From positions 1 to 48,705 of the IMG/VR virus record IMGVR_UViG_3300009610_000015: 48,705 nucleotides of DNA, one strand, 5' to 3'. Position 1 is the first letter of the stretch. Every line of letters begins with the position of its first letter. A program made the translations under genes and the position numbers. The notes under the pieces were generated by a model, which made no database searches, was not told the DNA's origin, and saw nothing but the letters and a program-made list of their open reading frames with translations. Below are positions 15,175-37,131 of this stretch, piece after piece. The DNA comes from a virus.

Positions 15175-17036
15175 GCCTCCGAGACCACGAGCCGATTTCG
15201 TTCAATCAGTTCCGCGGCACTTTTGACCGGGGGGAGGACGAGTCTGTCCCCCCGGGCTTTTTCAAAGGGTCGAGGAACATCCAGTTCATCAATCAGGGGA
15301 TTAAGACGAGGGATGGTTCTGCAATCGATACGGCGGAGACTGGACCTATCCGACGAATCGCTATTTATAAGAGAATCGGCGAGGTCGCGCGCCTCCTGAT
15401 TCTCAACAACGCTGGGGTCCTCTTTGACTCCATAACTCACACAGCAATTCTTACCATCCCGGCCATGTCTGACTTCAGCATGGTCAGCATGTTCAACCGA
15501 GCTTACATCACTCCGCACAATGGCCTCCGTGGTCTCCCGGGAGAAAAGTTATATGTGTATGAAGGGTCAGGAGTTGCACGACCTGCGGGAGGAACAGCTC
15601 CGCCTCCAACGGGAATGCAGGCAGCAGAAGGAGTTGCGGGAAACTTCGACCCGGGAATTCATCTTTTCGCAGTTGCGTTTGAGACTGCATCAGGATACAT
15701 TACGCCTTTCGGCTCCTCCTGCGCTATCTCCTCCACGACCGGAGGAAAGAAGATAGATCTTTCCGCCATCCCAACTGGGCCTCTAGGAACTGTCGCGCGT
15801 GTTTTGATGGGAACGAAGGATGTAGCAATCAATGGGGTCTTCTCCGGGGACTTTAACAACCAGACTTGGTATGTAATCCCGGATGGACGGATTCCAGACA
15901 ATTCTACAACCGTTAAGACCGTAAGCTATTTCGACGCCGACCTCCAGTCAGACATTTCCTACCTCTCAGAGCAGATGGGGTCTATCCCTGCTGGAGTAGG
16001 AGTCAACATCTATCGGGGCCGCTTAATTATTTGGGGTGAAGATGTCAACGAATCAATCGTTAGAGCTTCCGCCATTGGACAGCCGGAGTCCTTTGACGAG
16101 GCCGATGGCTTCGTTACCATCAATCCCGGCGATAGTGGCGGTGGAGTCCGATTCTGCTTCGAGTATCGAACTCAGCTTATTTGTTGCAAATCTCAGCGAT
16201 CCTACATTACGCAGGATAATGGAGATAATGCAGGAAGCTGGAAAGTTGACGCTCTCGATAAGAGTGTCGGGACCGAATGTCACGGAGTTGGAAAAATTCT
16301 CGACTTTGGCGAGGACGTTCGAGACCGCGCCTTCATCGCAGATAGGAGTGGGCTTCAGCTTTATACTGGAACTTTCTCCGACACTGAGGTCACCAGCAAC
16401 ATCTCCGACGTCTGGGACCGAATAAACAAGGCGGTTTTCCACAAGGTCGAAGTAGCTGTAGATCCTTTGAAAGGTTTGACCTACGTCGCCTGCCCTCTGG
16501 ACGTAGCAACGGAGAACAATGCCATCATCGTCGTGGACTGGTCAGAAGGTTTGACCGTCGAGGATATCAGGTTCACCATTTGGGAGTTCCCTTATCGGCC
16601 TCAGACTGTAGTTGTCGATGTGAACGAGGCGGATAAGGAATCCGTCATGAAGTTTGCTGGCCTCGACTCCATCAACGTATTCAAGATAGTGGAGAATCTG
16701 AAGCTCGACAACAACCTCGCTATCGATACGTGGGTGGAGTTCCCTCTCCTCCCGCAAGACGACGACTGGCCTGTAAATCACTTCACCGGATTTCGCGCGC
16801 GAATTAAGGGGGTTGGCTACCTCCTGATAAACCTCACGAGCCTTGACGACGCACAGCAGGTTGTAGTGCCTCCTGTAACTCTGAATCCTCAGCCCGGACG
16901 CCCGCTTTTCCGAGGTTTCAATTTCACGTCGGAAAGATGCTCCGTGAAATTAAGGACTAACCAGAGTGGGAACTACTTCATGATGACGAACTTCAACTTG
17001 TATTACAAGCTCCTCTGGTCGACCCGAGCTGAGTAA
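15171..17036 (+). CDS. Large beta-rich tail hub/nozzle protein, 621 aa
   Basis: ATGA-coupled to the upstream gene. The whole protein is beta-strand rich, with repeated blade-like segments (for example GVRFCFEYRTQLICC, AFIADRSGLQLYTG and YVACPLDVATENNAIIVVDW), suggesting a beta-propeller as in podovirus nozzle or stabilisation proteins. Following an adaptor and preceding the fibres, it probably forms the short tail tube or nozzle. No enzymatic motif seen. Confidence 0.65.
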   Translation: MSLRDHEPISFNQFRGTFDRGEDESVPPGFFKGSRNIQFINQGIKTRDGSAIDTAETGPIRRIAIYKRIGEVARLLILNNAGVLFDSITHTAILTIPAMSDFSMVSMFNRAYITPHNGLRGLPGEKLYVYEGSGVARPAGGTAPPPTGMQAAEGVAGNFDPGIHLFAVAFETASGYITPFGSSCAISSTTGGKKIDLSAIPTGPLGTVARVLMGTKDVAINGVFSGDFNNQTWYVIPDGRIPDNSTTVKTVSYFDADLQSDISYLSEQMGSIPAGVGVNIYRGRLIIWGEDVNESIVRASAIGQPESFDEADGFVTINPGDSGGGVRFCFEYRTQLICCKSQRSYITQDNGDNAGSWKVDALDKSVGTECHGVGKILDFGEDVRDRAFIADRSGLQLYTGTFSDTEVTSNISDVWDRINKAVFHKVEVAVDPLKGLTYVACPLDVATENNAIIVVDWSEGLTVEDIRFTIWEFPYRPQTVVVDVNEADKESVMKFAGLDSINVFKIVENLKLDNNLAIDTWVEFPLLPQDDDWPVNHFTGFRARIKGVGYLLINLTSLDDAQQVVVPPVTLNPQPGRPLFRGFNFTSERCSVKLRTNQSGNYFMMTNFNLYYKLLWSTRAE

Positions 17037-18508
17037 TGGCCGAGATTGATACCCAAGCGCTTCTCGGAGACATTGAGTCCGAGCTCCGTAAGCAGCACAT
17101 CGATGTTCAAGGGCTGATCCAGGGAATCCAGCTTGAGAACCCACGGCTCTATCAAATCCTGATGGAGCTGAACGGTGGCCTCCTCTCTGTCCAGGAAGAA
17201 ATCTTCCCACTCATAATTAAGGATAGGCTCCCGACCAACATCGGTGAGATCCTCCTACAGCCCGCTTCGTTCACCTTTGCGTTCCAGCCGACCTCTGTCC
17301 GGTTCTTCTGGAGCGAAGTTCCACAAGCATACGGTTATGAGATTCGGGAAGGGATGCTTTGGGACACTGCAACTTTCCGGGTTCGAACTGCCTCCCTCCA
17401 GGTCGACTTGGACCCTTTGCTCACTGGCTCCTACTACTTCCTCATCAAGACGATAAACGTAGCAGGGGAATACTCAGTCGATGCTCGTTCTGTCCTCGTC
17501 GATGTGCCTGCAATCTCGGCGGTAGTTCTCGCGCGCGAGGTTATTGATAACAACGTCCTCCTACGTTGGACTCTCCCGACTTCGACGTTTAGGATTTTGC
17601 ATTACGAGGTTTCCAAGGGTTCTGTTGTTGCTGGCCTCGTAGACTCCAACTTCTTCGTGGTTTTCGAGAACGTCGCAGGCACCTACGTATATTCGGTTGT
17701 TGGGATAGATGTAGCGGGAAACCGCGGCCTCCCAGCGTCGATTACGGTGCAGGTTGCCTCGCCTCCTGATTACGCGCTACAGGATAAGAGAATCTCTCGG
17801 CTTCTTGGACCGAAAGAGGATATACTGAGGATTCCACCTTTAGAGTCTCTAGTCAATCCGGTCCTCCTAGGGCCTTGGTTCTCTACGACCTGGGAGCAGC
17901 ACTTCGTCAATAACAATTGGGAAGATATCCAGGACCAGCTGGAGGCTGATTACGTCATCTACATTCAGCCTACCGACCTCGATGGAAAATACGAGGAATA
18001 CATAGACTACGGAACGGTGATCAGCAATGTCATCGTCACTGTAGCTTTCAATTTCAATCTGCACGTTCAGGATGTTGCAGTCATCATTGAGATGTCTAGC
18101 TCCCTGGATAATGCAAACTGGACTCCTGTGGTGACAGGTTCTAGTCAGTATTTCCCAACCATGAGGCATCTGTTCATTAGGTTGAAGTGGACCGCATCAG
18201 ACGACCGAGCTTTGCTGGAACTCTGGAATCTTAGCATCTCCATCTCGGTTAAGAGAGAGAACGATGGTGGTGAGGTTTTCGCAACTTACAACACTGTTGG
18301 AGATCCGGGCACCTACGTCACATTTAAGAAGCCTTTCAAAGACGTGGAATCCATCACTTGCACCACAAAGACTACTACAGAGCCTTACTATGCAGTCTTT
18401 GACTTCCAGGATATTCCAAATCCTGTTGGTTTCTACGTCTGGGTCTTCGACTCCTCGGGAAATCGAGTGAAGCAGACTGTTGATTGGAAAGCTCGGGGTA
18501 TCGTCTAA
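17036..18508 (+). CDS. Fibronectin-type-III tail protein, 490 aa
   Basis: TAATG-coupled. The N-terminus is helical (residues 1-60). Two FnIII-like beta sandwiches follow (about 75-155 and 158-240), recognisable by the VRFFWSEVPQAYGYEIR and VLLRWTLP strands and the Y-Y-F-IKT-N-AGEYS / Y-YSVVGIDVAGN ends. The second half is another beta-rich domain, perhaps a carbohydrate-binding sandwich. Likely a tail-tip or fibre-base protein that contacts the cell surface; receptor unknown. Confidence 0.75.
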   Translation: MAEIDTQALLGDIESELRKQHIDVQGLIQGIQLENPRLYQILMELNGGLLSVQEEIFPLIIKDRLPTNIGEILLQPASFTFAFQPTSVRFFWSEVPQAYGYEIREGMLWDTATFRVRTASLQVDLDPLLTGSYYFLIKTINVAGEYSVDARSVLVDVPAISAVVLAREVIDNNVLLRWTLPTSTFRILHYEVSKGSVVAGLVDSNFFVVFENVAGTYVYSVVGIDVAGNRGLPASITVQVASPPDYALQDKRISRLLGPKEDILRIPPLESLVNPVLLGPWFSTTWEQHFVNNNWEDIQDQLEADYVIYIQPTDLDGKYEEYIDYGTVISNVIVTVAFNFNLHVQDVAVIIEMSSSLDNANWTPVVTGSSQYFPTMRHLFIRLKWTASDDRALLELWNLSISISVKRENDGGEVFATYNTVGDPGTYVTFKKPFKDVESITCTTKTTTEPYYAVFDFQDIPNPVGFYVWVFDSSGNRVKQTVDWKARGIV

Positions 18509-19980
18509 TGTGGCAGCGATATAATCAGGGAAGCCACATCTTCGAGAAGTCCCTCGACAACGGAGCGAGCTGGACTCCGATGATGATAAACCAGTCAAGC
18601 ATCGAGGGTATAGCTCCACTTCCGACGAATATTGCGTATACGAATGTTCAGAATGATTTCACTCGTAGACAACGAATCACACCGGCTCCTGGAGATAGTC
18701 TGACACCCTACTATGCTCTAGAACTTGTTGGTGGGGCGGCGACTGGAGGAGATCATGCTGGCCTCGTATTCAACTCAACGGGTATGGCTGTTGACCAAAG
18801 GAAATGGCGTATTATTACTAATGCTGGTCTACTACGCTTCGAGCCTCTAAACGATGCAGAAAATTATACATTCGATGTTATAGTCTCTATAGACCGAGCG
18901 TGTTCCATAGTAGCAAGCGGTAATATCTCAACATCTGCTAGTCTTTATTCAACATATCATATCCTTGCGAGTAATGGAACTATTCGCTCGCAGGGTCCGC
19001 GTGGCACTCCTCCTGGGTCTGGTGGTGGTATTGAGCTGTTCTTTCAGTCTGGGCTTGGGTATCTCCATTGTTACGACATAACTACTGGAGGATATCCGCC
19101 AATCATTATAGCCGGTGGCTCAGTGGACATCCAATGTGCATTGACCGTTGGTGGCATTACTGGTAGTGCTCATATTCAGTCTGCTGCTCATATGGCTTGC
19201 AGCACTCTCTACACTAGAAATGGCACCTTCGTTATGCCAGGTCGTGTCGATGTTGCTGATGGTGGCATTCAAGGCTCATGGTATCTTGGGTCACATCCCG
19301 CATATGGTCTGTATTCCAATACCGGATTGTATCTCGCTGGAGGATTGACGGTAGCAGGCGGGGCGAGCTTCGGTGGCTCGCTGACATTTCCTGCGAATGT
19401 GTGGCACCTTAGCAGTGATGGAATCCAACGTCTCTATTTTGGGTGGGGTAGTCATACATACATAAAAAGTTACGCTAACATTTATTTTCGAGGAGGTAAT
19501 ACTGATACGGAGATCCTCACTATCTTTGCAGGTGGAGAGGTGCAGACACCTGGTGGCGTGAAGGCGATGGCATTTGGTTGCAAACCGGGTATGTATGCTG
19601 CTCCGACAGGGAGCTGGTTCAATTTCAATTGGACCGGGAACGTCCAAGTCTGGATTGATGCAACCTACGTAGGAGATATTGTCTTTTCCGACTCACGCCT
19701 CAAGCGAGACTTCACACCTCTGACGAGCAGCCTTGATAAAGTGTTGAAGATGCGTCCTGGCTCGTTCTATTTTCGAGATGGTGTTGATGCTGCTCCACGT
19801 CTACGTCTCGGATTGCAAGCACAGGATTTGGTAGAGGTCGCCCCGGAGTTAGTTCGTCAGACAGACCTACCAACAGAATTGACCCCGGACGGCACTTATC
19901 AAATTGATTACACTGGAATGATACCTATGCTCGTTGCTTCTATTCAGGAGCTAGAGCAGCGTGTGAGCAAACTGGAGTAA
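18508..19980 (+). CDS. Tail fibre with S74 auto-cleaving chaperone, 490 aa
   Basis: I start at the ATG at 18508 that overlaps the preceding stop. The shaft is Gly/Ser/Ile-rich beta structure. From about residue 390 a peptidase S74 intramolecular chaperone begins: SDSRLKRDFTPL (Ser394, Lys399), then FYFRDG, LRLGLQAQDLVEVAPELV and a final coiled coil (ASIQELEQRVSKLE). In this family the chaperone trimerises the fibre and then cuts itself off just before the conserved Ser. The receptor-binding spike of the phage is probably this protein. Confidence 0.88.
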   Translation: MWQRYNQGSHIFEKSLDNGASWTPMMINQSSIEGIAPLPTNIAYTNVQNDFTRRQRITPAPGDSLTPYYALELVGGAATGGDHAGLVFNSTGMAVDQRKWRIITNAGLLRFEPLNDAENYTFDVIVSIDRACSIVASGNISTSASLYSTYHILASNGTIRSQGPRGTPPGSGGGIELFFQSGLGYLHCYDITTGGYPPIIIAGGSVDIQCALTVGGITGSAHIQSAAHMACSTLYTRNGTFVMPGRVDVADGGIQGSWYLGSHPAYGLYSNTGLYLAGGLTVAGGASFGGSLTFPANVWHLSSDGIQRLYFGWGSHTYIKSYANIYFRGGNTDTEILTIFAGGEVQTPGGVKAMAFGCKPGMYAAPTGSWFNFNWTGNVQVWIDATYVGDIVFSDSRLKRDFTPLTSSLDKVLKMRPGSFYFRDGVDAAPRLRLGLQAQDLVEVAPELVRQTDLPTELTPDGTYQIDYTGMIPMLVASIQELEQRVSKLE

Positions 19981-20334: not shown

Positions 20335-20527
20335 ACAACCGAAAGAACTGCCACGTCAAGAAATCACCCTTGAGGAACTCTACCAGGTCGTAGGTGAGCT
20401 AGAGATCGTTCGTCGTAAGTTCTCTCAGCAGCTTCAACAGCTCTATACTCAGGTCGACGAGATGGCGAAAGAAATCGCTAATCTGAGGAACAAAGATGGC
20501 GGACTGGTCAAAGCCGACAATAACTAG
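20327..20527 (+). CDS. Short coiled-coil protein, 66 aa
   Basis: Starts at the ATG at 20327 within the end of the previous gene. After a Pro-rich N-terminus nearly the whole chain is one heptad-patterned helix (LEELYQVVGELEIVRRKF then QLYTQVDEMAKEIANLR). Probably a trimeric or dimeric coiled coil of the tail. Overlaps the next fibre gene by 32 bp. Confidence 0.65.
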   Translation: MPEQPKELPRQEITLEELYQVVGELEIVRRKFSQQLQQLYTQVDEMAKEIANLRNKDGGLVKADNN

Positions 20528-21122
20528 CAATTACGTCACCTTCGTCGATGAGGTGAAGGATCGTGATTTCGACGCTATTAGTCTGCAATACAACGCGCTC
20601 GTAAACCCTCCGAACGCCTCGGTGAAGCTCGTCCGCTCTCCTGTCAAATTCCAGCAATGGATGACGGGGGCGTGGAACGAGCTGACCCTTTCGGTCGAGG
20701 GAGGAGGGACTGGGCAGACCTCGATCGCAGGGTTCCGCACGAGCCTTGGCCTCGGGTCAATGGCCTACCAGAACTCCAACGCTATTGCGGTCACAGGCGG
20801 GACGATCGCTAACATCACGTCTGGTGGTAGCTACTTCAACCATCAGGGCGGGACGATGACGATTCTCCAGCCTACGATAGCGGGTCATGCACTCACGATC
20901 AACGGACCTGCTAATGGATACCATGCCCTCCTAATTTCATGCCCGGCATCTGTTGGTCATGGTGTCCATCTTCAAGCAGGATCTTCTCATAACGACTGGC
21001 CGCTTCGTATTATGAATTACAATGCGACCGTCGAAATCATGAGGGTAACGGGTGCAGGATCTACTTGGATTGCAGGGACTCTTGCTATCCCTGTGGGTGC
21101 AGACAAGTGGGTTCCCTGGTAA
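20496..21122 (+). CDS. Tail fibre protein, 208 aa
   Basis: The N-terminus is mixed. From residue about 65 it shows the classic fibre repeat GGTGQTSIAGFRTSLGLG followed by SMAYQNSNAIAVTGGTI, then a Gly/His-rich beta shaft. This is the trimeric beta-fibre style of phage side-tail fibres. It ends with a short W-P-W. Directly upstream of the His-Xaa-Asn repeat protein, so the two may be adjacent parts of one fibre. Confidence 0.8.
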   Translation: MADWSKPTITSNYVTFVDEVKDRDFDAISLQYNALVNPPNASVKLVRSPVKFQQWMTGAWNELTLSVEGGGTGQTSIAGFRTSLGLGSMAYQNSNAIAVTGGTIANITSGGSYFNHQGGTMTILQPTIAGHALTINGPANGYHALLISCPASVGHGVHLQAGSSHNDWPLRIMNYNATVEIMRVTGAGSTWIAGTLAIPVGADKWVPW

Positions 21123-22058
21123 ATGGCTAAGCGACCAGGCTCCCTTTGGGTCGAAGGGAATAGCCTTAACTACGTAGACGCATATGGTAGGGAGTGGTCC
21201 TATGCTGGCGTCTACATTAAGAACATAGGATGGGGTCGTCCTGGTTCTCTCTGGGTTGAGGGATACTATATCTTCTACATCGCGGAGTCGGGAACTCAAG
21301 TATTCCGGTTACAAGCGACCTGGAATGGAGAGTATCACGGTAGGACTGGTTCCATCTGGGTCGAGGATTGGGCGCTTCGGCACATTGGAGGAGGAGAAGC
21401 TGCTGAATTCTGGGCGCACGATAACCTAGCTCATACAAACGTAACGCATGTAGATACCGGAATCGCAACTCACACCAACACGCATACAAACGTAGCACAT
21501 AATAACATAGCGCACGTCAACTGGCACTCAAACGTAGCACACGTAAATTATCATACCAGTTACGAGCACGCCAATTATCACGGGAACACTCATACAAACG
21601 TCCCGCATACTGATGAGTGGGCTGTCTTGGAGCATGGGGATTACTACTCCCCAAATTACGGATATCCTGCGGCTGGTTCCTATCATCATGCGGACTGCAC
21701 GATTATAAGTCGAGGACAAGCCACTGGTCAGCATGGAGACCATTATGATGCACCTCCTAATACTCCAGCTCATAATGATGGTTACTACTTCAAGGATCAC
21801 TGTAACTTCCACGATAACCTAGCACACGCAAACAACCATTACGACTCACCTGGGCAGTCAGCGCACACAAACTACCACGGGAACACCGAGCACGTTGACT
21901 ACTGGACCCAGACGGCGCACTCAAACGCGCATGGGAATACGCATACGAACGTCGAGCATCAGGACGTTCCTCATGCGAACCATAACGACACGATTCACCA
22001 GAATGTGGCCCATGCGAACGTCACGCATCAGGATCAGCCTGTCCTCATAGGATACTAA
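21123..22058 (+). CDS. Fibre-like protein with about 34 His-Xaa-Asn/Asp motifs, 311 aa
   Basis: The N-terminal third has three repeats of about 35 residues, each beginning RPGSLWVEG or RTGSIWVED and then an aromatic strand. From residue 99 (His99) to the end, nearly every His is the first residue of H-x-N or H-x-D (HTN, HVN, HGN, HAN, HSN, HQD and so on), usually spaced 4-6 residues apart. The repeats are interrupted by a Tyr/Gly-rich stretch at about 160-200. It follows a fibre gene and overlaps the radical SAM gene by 1 bp (TAATG). Its regular His spacing suits metal binding, as in HxH phage spikes, and also suits a substrate for the downstream maturase, by analogy with HxsA His-Xaa-Ser proteins. 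The modification is inferred. Confidence 0.85.
   Translation: MAKRPGSLWVEGNSLNYVDAYGREWSYAGVYIKNIGWGRPGSLWVEGYYIFYIAESGTQVFRLQATWNGEYHGRTGSIWVEDWALRHIGGGEAAEFWAHDNLAHTNVTHVDTGIATHTNTHTNVAHNNIAHVNWHSNVAHVNYHTSYEHANYHGNTHTNVPHTDEWAVLEHGDYYSPNYGYPAAGSYHHADCTIISRGQATGQHGDHYDAPPNTPAHNDGYYFKDHCNFHDNLAHANNHYDSPGQSAHTNYHGNTEHVDYWTQTAHSNAHGNTHTNVEHQDVPHANHNDTIHQNVAHANVTHQDQPVLIGY
21417..22033 (+). repeat. Coding repeat region: H-x-N/D array
   Basis: Degenerate short repeats such as CACxCAAAC (HTN) and CATGCGAAC (HAN) run through this stretch, encoding about 34 H-x-N/D motifs. DNA copies vary at third positions, so the repeat is conserved at protein rather than DNA level. Confidence 0.8.
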
Positions 22059-23254
22059 TGACTGTCGAATATCTCCCCGTTGGTATCGCCTGCAATATCG
22101 CCTGCAAGTATTGCTATCAGGAAAGCCAAAGAGATGCAGGGAATATCAACATGCCTCGGAACTGGGAGAGAGTGCGCTCCCAGCTCGACCGCATTGGGGT
22201 CGACTTCGCAGTCTTTGGTGGGGAGCCTCTGCTGACCCCTATGGCTCACCTCGAAGAAGTGTTCAAATATGGCTTCGAGAAACACGGTAAGAATGGGATT
22301 CAGACTAACGGATCTCTCATCACCGACGAGCATATCGACCTATTTGATAAATACAAGGTCCACGTAGGCATCTCGATAGATGGACCTGGCGAGCTGAATA
22401 GTGTTCGCTGCACGAACGATTTGACAGAGAAAACAGAGAGCGCGATCAGGAAGCTATGTGATCGGGGAATCCCTCCCTCCCTCATTATGACGATCCACCG
22501 GGGGAACAATGATATTCCTGCTCTCACTCGCTGGCTTGATTCTCTTGCTCTACGAGGCTTACGCTACCTTAACTTCCACGAAATGGAGCAAGAGTGCGGA
22601 CAAACGGAACCCGCCCTCTCCGAAGCCGAAACCATAAGGAACTTCCTCCAGCTCTATGAGTGGTCGAAAGGGACGAAGTTCTGGATAAACCCGTTCGTCG
22701 ATATTCGTTCGCTCCTCACAGAGATGGAGCCAAGAGCCAACTGCGTCTGGCACGCTTGCGACCCCCAGACTACCGAAGCCGTTCAAGGAATCAATCCCGA
22801 TGGATCAATGTCAAATTGTGGTAGAGCTTATAAGGACGGCGTCAACTGGCTCAAGGCTGATACCCCCGGATTCGAACGCTATGTTGCGCTTTATCACACT
22901 CCTCAAGAACACGGCGGATGCGCAGGATGTAAGTATTTTGCTTTCTGTAAGGGTCAGTGTCCGGGCACTGCAATCGACGGAGATTGGCGAAACCGAAGCC
23001 TAGAGTGTCGTCTTTGGTATTCCCTCTTCGACGCCATTTCAGAGGATAACAAGGATCGACTCCTACCTCCTGAAGTTGTGAAGCAGAAGGAAGAGGCTCT
23101 GATGAATCGTTGGGCCTCTCCTCAGAACAACGAGCATGGGGACAAGCACGGAGATATTCCTCATGGCGACAAGCATGGGGATCATACGGATTACGGTCCT
23201 GGAGTTGAAGCTGTATTCTGCACCGAGAAACCAGAATGGTTACTGACAAACTAA
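22058..23254 (+). CDS. Radical SAM/SPASM peptide maturase, 398 aa
   Basis: The N-terminal radical SAM barrel has CNIACKYC (Cys12, Cys16, Cys19) to hold the 4Fe-4S cluster that cleaves SAM, and GGEP (54-57) for SAM binding. A full SPASM domain follows: Cys229, Cys234 and Cys254, then CAGCKYFAFCKGQC (288-301, the Cx2Cx5Cx3C signature) and Cys317, enough for two extra clusters. Enzymes of this class modify peptides or proteins post-translationally (thioether, C-C or epimer chemistry). The C-terminus (360-378) has five H-x-D motifs resembling the upstream protein. TAATG coupling to that protein and an overlap with the downstream methyltransferase gene suggest one modification cassette. Confidence 0.9.
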   Translation: MTVEYLPVGIACNIACKYCYQESQRDAGNINMPRNWERVRSQLDRIGVDFAVFGGEPLLTPMAHLEEVFKYGFEKHGKNGIQTNGSLITDEHIDLFDKYKVHVGISIDGPGELNSVRCTNDLTEKTESAIRKLCDRGIPPSLIMTIHRGNNDIPALTRWLDSLALRGLRYLNFHEMEQECGQTEPALSEAETIRNFLQLYEWSKGTKFWINPFVDIRSLLTEMEPRANCVWHACDPQTTEAVQGINPDGSMSNCGRAYKDGVNWLKADTPGFERYVALYHTPQEHGGCAGCKYFAFCKGQCPGTAIDGDWRNRSLECRLWYSLFDAISEDNKDRLLPPEVVKQKEEALMNRWASPQNNEHGDKHGDIPHGDKHGDHTDYGPGVEAVFCTEKPEWLLTN

Positions 23255-24603
23255 AGCGTCTTGATTTTACCATCCCGGACTTCTTCAGGACCATCTGGGT
23301 TTCTGAGGAAGCGAAGGATCTGTGGGAAGAAAGAATCCGCGCAATCGCTGCGAACTGGCCTTACATCGAGAGGGCAGCACTCCTTCATGGAGTAAGACCT
23401 GGAATTCTTCAATCTGTTCCTCCTATGGACCTCCCGATGGTTCAACATTGGGCTATGGAGAACAAGGTTCCAATGGTCATCCTAGAACTAGAGGGGGAGT
23501 CTGGTCTTTCCTACGGGAATGCTAGAATCCCCTATGAGCAGGGGAAGCCATTCACCTATCGGGTTTACTATGGGAAGGCTCCAGCTCATTTCCAGGGGTA
23601 TTGGAAGGAAGGAAATCAGGTAGCAATAGGTCGAGCACTTGGTTATCCTCCCTGTTGCATCGAATCCTTCAAGAAGCACTGGACGGAGGAGGGGTGGAGA
23701 GACCTCACCTACCACTCCTATGACGACCCGAATGAGAAGAACTTGATGTATAACAACGTGCTCCTCCGACAGCTCGGAGTCAGAGCCGTTTCACATCTGC
23801 CATGCACTATCTCATGTAGGCCATCCTGTAAGGTAGGGATGGATATGTTCGAGGTCATGGCGAAATGTGAGCATCAGACCGAAATCATAAACTGGATGAA
23901 GACCCTCTTGGCTATGCCGATGAAGTGGTCCTCTCTCCACGGAGTTGCCATCCTCACTACGCCTCTATTCAAGTTGATAAACGCGACCGACCCTCTCCCT
24001 TCTACCTCTGAGGTGAGTCTTGCCTCCGACTACTATCCTGAGGGTGGGGCAAGTGCAAACGTCTTTCCATTCCAGCAGGTTCGGCATCTGAAGTTCGCTA
24101 AGAGCAATGACTCCGACTTCCTGGATAATGGATTCGGTTCTCGGAGTTCGATGGTGGCTGCGCATCGGTTCATCCTCTCGATGCTACCTAACCAGATTGG
24201 GGGAGGTGTTATCGGTCGAGTTCTAGATCTTGGCTGCGGTAATGGACGCCTCCTGAAAGCTATCAAGAAGGAGCACCAAGAGGTAACACTCTATGGTGTC
24301 GATACCAAGGACATGGTCGGTGACACCTGGAATTTCATCCAAAGTGACATCTACGATTTCGAGTGGGAGGGAGAGTATCAGATAACCTTAATGTCTGTGG
24401 AGAGGTTACATGAGGTGAATAAGGAGCAGGCGATTGACTTGCTCCAGGCGATTAGTTCACATTCCAAGCTTCTCCTCCTATCCACTTACAATACGTGGAT
24501 GCATGGATTCGACGGTGAAATCAACAACCTGTTCTCCGTAGTCGCTGTCGGTGTTGATCCGGCCCTAGGCTACGAGGCCAAACTTCTAGAGAGGAAAATC
24601 TAA
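23236..24603 (+). CDS. Cys-rich DUF483-like domain fused to SAM methyltransferase, 455 aa
   Basis: Starts at the ATG 19 bp inside the radical SAM gene. Residues about 1-250 form an alpha/beta domain with GYPPCCIESF (Cys140, Cys141) and CTISCRPSC (Cys190, Cys194, Cys198), the arrangement I associate with DUF483; a metal or Fe-S site is possible. Residues about 300-455 are a class I methyltransferase: VLDLGCGNGRLL (motif I, 329-340) and an acidic LYGVD (352-356). The fusion and its tight coupling to the maturase suggest it acts on the same substrate, perhaps methylating it. The DUF483 call is moderate; the methyltransferase call is strong. Confidence 0.8.
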   Translation: MVTDKLKRLDFTIPDFFRTIWVSEEAKDLWEERIRAIAANWPYIERAALLHGVRPGILQSVPPMDLPMVQHWAMENKVPMVILELEGESGLSYGNARIPYEQGKPFTYRVYYGKAPAHFQGYWKEGNQVAIGRALGYPPCCIESFKKHWTEEGWRDLTYHSYDDPNEKNLMYNNVLLRQLGVRAVSHLPCTISCRPSCKVGMDMFEVMAKCEHQTEIINWMKTLLAMPMKWSSLHGVAILTTPLFKLINATDPLPSTSEVSLASDYYPEGGASANVFPFQQVRHLKFAKSNDSDFLDNGFGSRSSMVAAHRFILSMLPNQIGGGVIGRVLDLGCGNGRLLKAIKKEHQEVTLYGVDTKDMVGDTWNFIQSDIYDFEWEGEYQITLMSVERLHEVNKEQAIDLLQAISSHSKLLLLSTYNTWMHGFDGEINNLFSVVAVGVDPALGYEAKLLERKI

Positions 24604-35420: not shown

Positions 35421-35767
35421 ACCATCTCCGTAAGCTCCTCAACCGTATAAACGATCTTGATTTGTTTCGAGATAGCAACGGTGCGCTCCATGACAGCGCC
35501 GGGACTTTTCTCCCATCCCGGAAGCATCAGGATGTGAGTGCAGTGTCCTAGGACAGCCAGATCGTAGGCCATCCAAGTGTGGTAGTGGAGGTCGTAGGCA
35601 GAGGGGAAAGCGGCACCCAGGTGGACGCAGATGGAGGGAATGCCCTCACCCGTGAGTCTGATGAACACCTTGAGCGCGGCTGCTACGTTCTGCTCAGTGC
35701 TCATCTCCCCGTTTGGAGTAATGGGGCCTGAGATGTAAACAAGCACATCTTTCTGCATCTCAATCAT
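35399..35767 (-). CDS. DUF4406-type (deoxyribosyltransferase-like) protein, 122 aa
   Basis: Start chosen at the ATG that overlaps the preceding stop by four bases (ATGA); an upstream in-frame start lies inside the methyltransferase gene. Begins MIEMQKDVLVYISGP, with VYISGPIT as the nucleoside 2-deoxyribosyltransferase-like Rossmann entry, HTWMAYDLAVLGHCTHILMLPGW and then the helix after SPGAVMER. This small family (DUF4406) is widespread in phages. It probably handles nucleotides or NAD-like substrates, but activity is undemonstrated. The stop overlaps the polymerase start by 22 bp. Confidence 0.85.
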   Translation of the reverse strand: MIEMQKDVLVYISGPITPNGEMSTEQNVAAALKVFIRLTGEGIPSICVHLGAAFPSAYDLHYHTWMAYDLAVLGHCTHILMLPGWEKSPGAVMERTVAISKQIKIVYTVEELTEMVWGKEKE

Positions 35768-37035
35768 TTTAGCCCCAGTCGTGCTTTCCCGCTCTCGTAG
35801 TAGTTCTTCTCCCGTTCGCATACGATGTATCTCCTATCTAGCTCTTTGGCTGCGGCTGCGGTAACGAAGGAACCTCCGAAGGGGTCCAGGATGATGTTGC
35901 CCTTGTAAGTCAGGTCGCCGATGATGTCCTTCACGAGTTCAATCGGCTTCTCGTTGGGATGCAGGAGCTTCTGGGGTGGCACAGCTGGAAATGTCTTGAC
36001 CCCAGATAGGACAGTGGGAGAGGTCATTGCTGGTGATCCCTTAGTAGCTATGACCCCAAGCTCGAAGTTCCTATCATACTCCCAAGGTCGAACTCCTCGT
36101 CGGGAGAGTGCATTTGTCTTGTTCCAGATCATGGGGTTCTTGGAGACCTTGAAGCCAAGCCTCTCCAGTTCTCCATTGGTGTGGACTAGCTTGCCGGTCG
36201 AGTGGTCCCGCACATCGGAGCCGCAGTAGTAGGCGTAGTCGTCCAGACCACAGAAGAAGAACAGGAACCCATCGTGTCTTAGCACCCTGTAGATCTCCTT
36301 GAAGACCGGCATCGTTCGCTGGTCCAGGGTCAAATCCTCCTGAAAGAACTTGATCCACGGTGGGTCAGTTATGCAGTGGTCGATGCTCTGCGCGGGAAAC
36401 TTGGAGAGCACGGTCGCCGCATCTCCCAGATAGCACTGGTTGACCGCTAGGTCTTGGTTGACGAGGCCCGCTTCTTCTTCTGCCTCGAATCGTTGTGCAG
36501 CAATGCGGACAAGCCGGACAGCTGTCTTTTTATCTCTAATGTTACGGAGAGAAGGGTCAAGCTGGACCGCCCTAGCGAGCTGGAGGTCTTCTGCAATTGG
36601 TCCGAGAGAGATGCCAAGCTCACGAGCAGTGTCTCGGACTCCCCATCCAGTCTTTTCCGCGTCTTTTTTGGGCCTACCTGTAGGAGCCTCACCGTATTCT
36701 GACTGTCGAAACTTGTGAAGTGCCTCGATAAGGAGGGCCTCCTCCCACCACGGGAGATTGTGCCGCTTAAGGTTTTCGTGGGTCTGGATGATTTTGCCTT
36801 GGATTTCGTCGACTTCGCGGACTTCGGCATCGATCTCCTTCCATTCCAGTTTAATCGCGGCCCGCAAACGCTTCTCCCCAGATACCAGGAAGTAACCCTC
36901 ATCCCTCGGCCGCACAATGATGGGATGGGAGAGACCGAGTTCCTTGAGCGACGATGCGATGTTGTCTACGTCAGATACTAGCTCTGGTGACTCCTCTGAG
37001 GGTGAGTAAAAGATGCTCTCGATCGGTAGCTTCAT
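35764..37035 (-). CDS. ParB-domain DNA methyltransferase, 423 aa
   Basis: ATG at 37035 is chosen for its AGAGGGAAAGA ribosome binding site; the longer frame would run through a hairpin. Residues 1-100 are a ParB/Sulfiredoxin-like domain (HPIIVRPRDEGYFLVSGEKRLRAA, abbreviated by its key GEKRLRAA at 53-60). A helix-turn-helix-like segment follows (about 130-165). Then comes a beta-class N4-cytosine/N6-adenine methyltransferase with DPPW (224-227, catalytic), HPNEKP (359-364) and the SAM-binding DPFGGSF (384-390). It would modify phage DNA against restriction or mark it for other proteins. Four-base overlap with the downstream gene. Confidence 0.9.
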   Translation of the reverse strand: MKLPIESIFYSPSEESPELVSDVDNIASSLKELGLSHPIIVRPRDEGYFLVSGEKRLRAAIKLEWKEIDAEVREVDEIQGKIIQTHENLKRHNLPWWEEALLIEALHKFRQSEYGEAPTGRPKKDAEKTGWGVRDTARELGISLGPIAEDLQLARAVQLDPSLRNIRDKKTAVRLVRIAAQRFEAEEEAGLVNQDLAVNQCYLGDAATVLSKFPAQSIDHCITDPPWIKFFQEDLTLDQRTMPVFKEIYRVLRHDGFLFFFCGLDDYAYYCGSDVRDHSTGKLVHTNGELERLGFKVSKNPMIWNKTNALSRRGVRPWEYDRNFELGVIATKGSPAMTSPTVLSGVKTFPAVPPQKLLHPNEKPIELVKDIIGDLTYKGNIILDPFGGSFVTAAAAKELDRRYIVCEREKNYYESGKARLGLK

Positions 37036-37049
37036 TCTTTCCCTCTGCG

Positions 37050-37131
37050 AAAAATTGCCGGGAGGCTTGCGTCCCCCCGTTACGCGAGACATACCCTCAC
37101 TCGTAACGACTCGCACCATTCCTCCCGGCAA
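37050..37131 (-). terminator. Nested inverted repeat with U-tract before the ParB-methyltransferase
   Basis: Outer arms TTGCCGGGAGG (37055-37065) and CCTCCCGGCAA (37121-37131) are perfect 11-bp inverted repeats. Inner arms CGTTACG (37078-37084) and CGTAACG (37102-37108) form a second stem. On the minus strand the outer stem ends in TTTTT, so it resembles a terminator or attenuator lying between the acidic peptide gene and the methyltransferase gene. A structured regulatory RNA is the alternative. Confidence 0.65.

Follow-up and report, generated by a model that had tools for sequence, protein, structure and literature searches.

A phage module in which a radical SAM/SPASM maturase and a DUF483-methyltransferase fusion may staple the His-x-Asn/Asp motifs of a tail protein

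Most of what is known of radical SAM peptide chemistry concerns the making of small secreted peptides. The closest described systems are the triceptide enzymes, which join residue i to residue i+2 and pair W, F, Y or H with N, D, R, A or S (PMC11002830). Within this group OscB links Trp to Asn or Asp, YxdB links Tyr to Asp, and HaaB and YhhB work via His C2 (PMC11002830). In phages, a 2024 paper reported an 'rSAM module' in the Thermus phages Cumys and phiMa, where it was read as an unknown DNA modification, and mentioned database fusions of DUF483 with a methyltransferase or with rSAM; HxD repeats go unmentioned in the passages found of that paper, and the word histidine is absent from its main text (PMC11437467). 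The open-access literature yielded nothing relevant on radical SAM enzymes with phage tails or on cyclophanes in phages, and no report of such virion chemistry was found.

We analyzed a window of 48,705 nucleotides, IMG/VR record IMGVR_UViG_3300009610_000015, which is a tailed-phage record encoding a terminase, a head protein, a DNA polymerase and a primase. One of its replication-side genes joins a ParB-like domain to a DNA methyltransferase (35767-37131, minus strand). The genes considered here are as follows.

18484-19980, plus strand: tail fibre with a C-terminal Peptidase_S74 chaperone (Pfam S74 E 1.4e-11; PHROG tail fibre E 4e-19)
20496-21122, plus strand: tail-fibre-like protein directly upstream of the putative substrate (weak PHROG tail fibre matches)
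21123-22058, plus strand: putative substrate, 311 aa, with N-terminal RPGS(L/I)WVEG repeats and 34 H-x-N/D motifs (motif counts, comparison with relatives)
22058-23254, plus strand: radical SAM/SPASM peptide maturase, 398 aa (Pfam, curated family models, conservation)
23236-24603, plus strand: DUF483-methyltransferase fusion protein, 455 aa, ATG start (ORF list, Pfam, AF2 model pLDDT 89)

The stop of the putative substrate gene overlaps the maturase start (TAATG), and the ORF list bears out what a sequence-only reading had noted for the fusion, namely an ORF at 23236-24603 that shares 19 nt (23236-23254) with the upstream ORF at 22058-23254. That reading had also placed the fusion in a virion operon; a location among tail genes is supported by the position of the module genes after tail genes, including the fibre with the S74 chaperone. 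In Cumys and phiLo, repeat proteins are encoded behind baseplate genes. The best explanation of the locus, to which we assign a probability of roughly 0.65 from sequence comparisons, is a module whose maturase would staple the His-x-Asn/Asp motifs of a tail protein, with a DUF483 partner and optional methylation. The three-gene module would thereby post-translationally modify the repeat protein encoded immediately upstream, a putative tail component.

The putative substrate contains 22 HxN and 12 HxD motifs, so that 34 of its 38 His lie in H-x-N/D, compared with a mean of 5.9 and a maximum of 15 in 20,000 shuffles. Motif His were unchanged (34/34) in comparisons with each of two near relatives, every position-3 change between the window protein and its two nearest relatives was a D-N swap, and about a third or more of the other positions differed. 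Tandem expansion of the repeats at the DNA level was ruled out for the window, as no array was detected in the gene and motif spacing varies. Across 57 repeat proteins (2,451 His) the residue at +2 was D in 83% and N in 6% with +1 free, percentages that are descriptive since these proteins were picked for having the motif. An unselected scan covered four aromatics, four offsets and 20 residues within 6 kb at p<1e-6. Its top motif at 60 phage loci was H+2D in 48, H+2N in three and F+2N in one, and H+2D was also the top motif at 32 of 59 genome loci; another 25 of these 59 had no motif at p<1e-6, with weaker HxD or HxK in several. The same scan around other radical SAM genes found no motif at p<1e-6 in 21 loci. 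In the reverse direction, a blind DNA pattern of four consecutive HxD at five-residue spacing returned 31 pieces with an HxD-rich ORF, and module genes were present in the piece for 18 and elsewhere in the record for two. The other 11, judged by eye, were largely simple repeats (HTDTA and RHQDM arrays) or fragments of the L245 family. Together with L188, L217 and L239, L245 belongs to a family of collagen-like fibres whose C-terminus carries an HxD/HxN array; a maturase is encoded at 90,158-91,429 of its record, apparently apart from the fibre gene.

Both ends of the motif vary between loci. At locus L010, a protein at the same position and with the same type of N-terminal repeat has FxN at 37 of its 43 Phe, and the maturase is 60-70% identical to enzymes adjoining HxD proteins. 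A single protein at L169 combines HxD/N (63/73) with FxD/N (23/26) and has a maturase in the same record, L025 also has WxD/N (28/46), and L027 has FxD/N (9/11). HxK occurs in three bacterial loci, L136-L138, clustered at the end of a large protein. Going by these sequences, the family motif is an aromatic residue, any residue, and then D, N or K, mostly HxD, with ends exchangeable within chemical classes and with fixed spacing. We also observed that L136-L138, L113 and L107 encode large bacterial proteins (about 870 to 1,100 aa; L136 is truncated) that end in clustered HVK or HVD, lie directly upstream of a maturase (in some cases DUF483-fused), and appear non-phage.

This variation bears on a rival account, in which the tail fibre with its H-x-D/N array stays unmodified and either binds metal or is structural, the enzymes having some other target. 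The tip of the T4 long tail fibre has HxH iron sites, His and Asp/Asn are metal ligands, and both the D/N mix of the window protein and its tail-gene location would suit such a function. However, Phe cannot bind metal and stands in for His in the 37 L010 motifs and in 23 L169 motifs, Lys replaces Asp in L136-L138, and module genes are present in 20 of the 31 records from the blind search, with simple repeats making up most of the remainder. We consider an unmodified array quite improbable. As both ends vary while the i to i+2 relation is fixed, carboxylate reactions, imidazole-specific chemistry and metal binding are all disfavored as a common theme, and linkage of an aromatic ring to the beta carbon of the residue at i+2 is favored. 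That the repeat protein is the substrate of the module enzymes appears very likely.

In the chemistry that we propose, the maturase would abstract a hydrogen at the beta carbon of the Asp or Asn in an aromatic-x-(Asp/Asn) motif and bond this carbon to the ring of the aromatic residue that opens the motif, His here. By analogy with HaaB, the bond would be expected to run from His C2 to the beta carbon of Asn or Asp. The predicted product is a three-residue ring, a triceptide-type cyclophane, which would be formed many times per chain. We regard a cyclophane of this size as the probable product from the motif pattern, with one point against it being that the substrates are large proteins, unlike short RiPP precursors.

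The maturase itself matches Radical_SAM (E 1.5e-17), and C12-xxx-C16-xx-C19 together with the SPASM cysteines C234, C254, C288, C291, C297, C301 and C317 are invariant in 52 sequences. Its best curated resemblances are to AmcB and DynA, neither of which reaches its cut-off (for AmcB, 85.7 vs 425 bits). All 52 maturases match these two models of cyclophane-forming enzymes, every one below cut-off, and no maturase of the family reaches the cut-off of any characterized cyclophane enzyme (models including AmcB, GrrM, FxsB, XyeB, YhhB and DynA). Because the matches fall far below the DynA and AmcB cut-offs, we treat these maturases as a separate family and do not file them as triceptide equivalog members. 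The closest solved sequence relative, aligned over most of the length, is the anaerobic sulfatase maturase anSME (4k36).

This relative is an oxidase, and many radical SAM peptide enzymes catalyze reactions other than ring formation, both of which lend some weight to the possibility that the same module acts on the same substrate to make a different beta- or alpha-carbon change (oxidation, dehydrogenation or epimerization), with DUF483 as a second enzyme and no cyclophane. Against this, a strict aromatic at i with D, N or K at i+2 is what ring closure requires, whereas oxidation or epimerization of a single residue would leave the aromatic at i unexplained. We judge such a change unlikely and retain the cyclophane as the preferred product.

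The maturase also carries motifs of its own near its C-terminus.

23135-23191, plus strand: HGDKHGDIPHGDKHGDHTD tail in the maturase, residues 360-378, with HGD/HTD motifs as in the putative substrate (sequence)

At least two such motifs follow the SPASM part in 47 of 58 phage maturases, where 241 of 287 His lie in a motif; the tail may serve for self-modification, as a docking mimic, or be a relic of a substrate. At one locus (L072:9001-12448) two maturase genes occur in tandem, the second encoding 647 aa with 25 HxD motifs, and HxD proteins lie on both flanks. Contig L031 (IMGVR_UViG_3300012159_000003) differs from the window by a single base, at 22749, over a shared stretch of 11.6 kb. This difference puts a premature stop in the L031 maturase, which may equally be a natural knock-out, a strain mixture or an assembly error.

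The N-terminal part of the fusion protein has the following features.

23236-24069, plus strand: DUF483-like domain, residues 1-278 (Pfam match at 128-210, conservation, model pLDDT 93.6)
23653-23658, plus strand: Cys140-Cys141 in an LGYPxCC motif (invariant, 51/51 relatives)
23794-23817, plus strand: H187-L-P-C190-xxx-C194 motif; with CC, its residues are candidate metal or redox ligands (conservation)

By hmmscan the fusion matches DUF483 (PF04467) at residues 128-210 with E 4.5e-5 and 23.9 bits, slightly short of the 25 that Pfam requires, whereas a six-frame search gives 25.6 bits, above this cut-off; 41 of 51 phage relatives, each scanned singly, match as well. Membership is borderline for the single sequence and clear for the family, which upholds the DUF483-like assignment made from the sequence alone. 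Across the 51 phage relatives C140, C141 and C194 are invariant, H187 is conserved in 50, and C190 is kept in 48, with His replacing it in the other three; E45, L135, P138, D156, R183 and P189 are further invariant residues of the domain. The sequence-only reading had described the cysteines as CC at 140-141 and CxxxCxxxC at 190-198. All of them are present, but C198 shows no conservation across the 51 relatives, so the second motif is really HxPCxxxC and its third Cys is incidental. The domain is predicted to fold confidently alone, and in this confident model both CC (140-141) and PCxxxC (190-194) sit at helix N-termini, an arrangement that a single cluster would allow. A structure-relative search found no solved sequence relative of the domain; the closest solved fold, 2guk, whose function is unknown, is a weak match (Z 7.2 over residues 35-150), and NleE (Z 4.2) was too weak for use. 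We hold it to be somewhat more likely than not that these Cys and His form a metal site. DUF483 would assist the radical SAM enzyme via the CC and HxPCxxxC site, in a role that could equally be repeat-protein recognition, electron delivery, or a second redox step or oxidation.

Searched as a single sequence against viral contigs, the fusion matched a near-identical contig only, and profiles were therefore used for the contig scans. These recovered about 60 distinct phage loci on viral contigs and 59 further loci in bacterial genomes of many phyla, so that the module of repeat protein, radical SAM enzyme and DUF483, with or without a methyltransferase, is found on about 60 phage contigs and in many bacterial genomes. 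For the 66 distinct phage radical SAM ORFs, a DUF483 gene was present at the same locus in 62 and an HxD/N repeat ORF in 55; phage loci lacking the repeat protein were mostly short or ended near the module. In 41 loci the end of the repeat gene falls at most 60 nt from where the maturase gene begins, and in 28 of them the two genes overlap by 4 or 1 nt. Bacterial genomes often encode the maturase and DUF483 as a single polypeptide, and locus L090 encodes a radical SAM-DUF483-methyltransferase triple fusion. The 62/66 linkage and the bacterial fusions contradict the prospect, raised with the sequence-only reading, of fusions lying away from radical SAM genes, and on this pattern DUF483 is quite likely an obligate partner of the maturase.

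The Thermus phages Cumys, phiMa and phiLo encode a DUF483 protein (28-29% identity) immediately after a radical SAM gene. The third module protein of Cumys, Cumys_13, has H-x-D at 54 of 54 His, and phiLo has three HxD proteins with over 200 motifs in total. Synechococcus S-CAM7 was rejected as a relative, as its match covers the methyltransferase only. DNA has been proposed as the target of the module in Cumys, and cyanobacterial homologues are described near deazapurine DNA-modification genes (PMC11437467). However, in both the window and Cumys the gene lies within a tail-gene block and adjoins a repeat protein, the motif of which varies together with the family, and the maturase resembles peptide-modifying SPASM enzymes. 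DNA modification is accordingly a highly improbable function, and modification of the repeat protein is preferred.

Outside the module, DUF483 has a wider distribution. In the phylum of a Nannocystis genome the radical SAM family occurs in 1 of 140 genomes and DUF483 in 28 of 140, so DUF483 alone is no marker of the module. In this phylum, DUF483 proteins with LGYPxCC and PCxxxC adjoin or are fused to other radical SAM enzymes; the contexts comprise a halogenase-like fusion, a carbamoyltransferase fusion, HxsC-like enzymes, and an HxsB that exceeds its cut-off and is accompanied by an HxsA-like protein with HGS repeats. Since the enzymes beside it are varied and quite different, DUF483 looks like a recurrent radical SAM partner that is unspecific to this chemistry, a point that counts against the proposed reading. 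In a myxobacterium (L308), a classic His-Xaa-Ser pair of HGS repeat peptide and HxsB (15670-16074 and 16127-17641, both minus strand) lies less than 3 kb from two DUF483 genes.

The remainder of the fusion protein is a second enzyme.

24124-24600, plus strand: residues 297-455, class I SAM methyltransferase domain in which DNGF and DLGCGNG are conserved (Pfam, conservation, Foldseek)

The claim of a SAM methyltransferase made from the sequence alone is borne out by a hmmscan match to Methyltransf_25 (residues 329-408, E 8.4e-6), by the DLGCGNG motif, and by Foldseek, whose best matches are class I methyltransferases. At least 35 of 51 phage relatives, each scanned singly, match a methyltransferase family, and D331, G333 and G335 are aligned in 46 of 51 phage DUF483 proteins. 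The best solved sequence relatives include plantazolicin peptide N-methyltransferases, which is a hint only. The domain is missing from the Thermus phages and from 5 of 51 other relatives; being optional, it is not part of the core of the module. Its presence is independent of whether the motif has D or N, and a tie to HxN instead of HxD was ruled out, as most fusions adjoin HxD proteins. Where present, the methyltransferase could modify the repeat protein in an additional step, and we lean slightly toward this protein being its target. A further enzymatic step, as in the multi-step pathway that had been proposed for the locus, is plausible, but the optional methyltransferase does not belong to its core.

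Taken together, we give somewhat better than even odds to the full picture, namely a tail-fibre protein bearing dozens of three-residue His-x-Asn/Asp cyclophane staples, DUF483 acting as a general radical SAM partner, methylation following as a second step, and the system being common among phages and extending to large bacterial proteins. Radical SAM chemistry seems here to be directed at a large viral structural protein. If true, backbone-stiffening staples in phage tail fibres would amount to covalent stapling of virion proteins by radical chemistry, DUF483 would gain a first function as a radical SAM enzyme partner, and the HxD, HxN, FxN and HxK loci would offer a large natural set of enzyme-substrate pairs for peptide stapling. 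The proposal is directly testable in cultivable phages, as Thermus thermophilus HB8 is a host for both Cumys and phiMa.

Compared with known systems, the phage family is like the triceptide maturases (XncB, OscB/GrrM, FxsB, YxdB, HaaB and YhhB; also DynA) in being radical SAM/SPASM enzymes with an aromatic-x-X3 target, with which HxD, HxN, FxN and HxK at a fixed i+2 agree; D and N are favored in the phage family. It differs from them in falling below all model cut-offs, in its putatively obligate DUF483 partner, in a phage or large bacterial substrate with up to dozens of motifs, and in a His-x-Asp/Asn pair that is absent from the published list (PMC11002830). The His-Xaa-Ser system (HxsA/HxsB/HxsC/HxsD) shares His repeats with an i+2 partner and radical SAM enzymes, but i+2 is Ser there and D or N here, and the HxsB model matches the maturases weakly (best E 3.1e-11 vs 5e-156 for true HxsB), which places them outside that system. 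The anaerobic sulfatase-maturating enzyme (4k36), whose product is formylglycine, acts on a single Cys or Ser, without repeats or DUF483. Relative to Pfam DUF483 (PF04467), the LGYPxCC and PCxxxC region of the fusion matches the model, whereas the phage domain is longer (about 270 aa) and is fused to a methyltransferase or radical SAM enzyme. The Cumys/phiMa module also lies among tail genes and consists of these three genes in identical order, without the methyltransferase domain.
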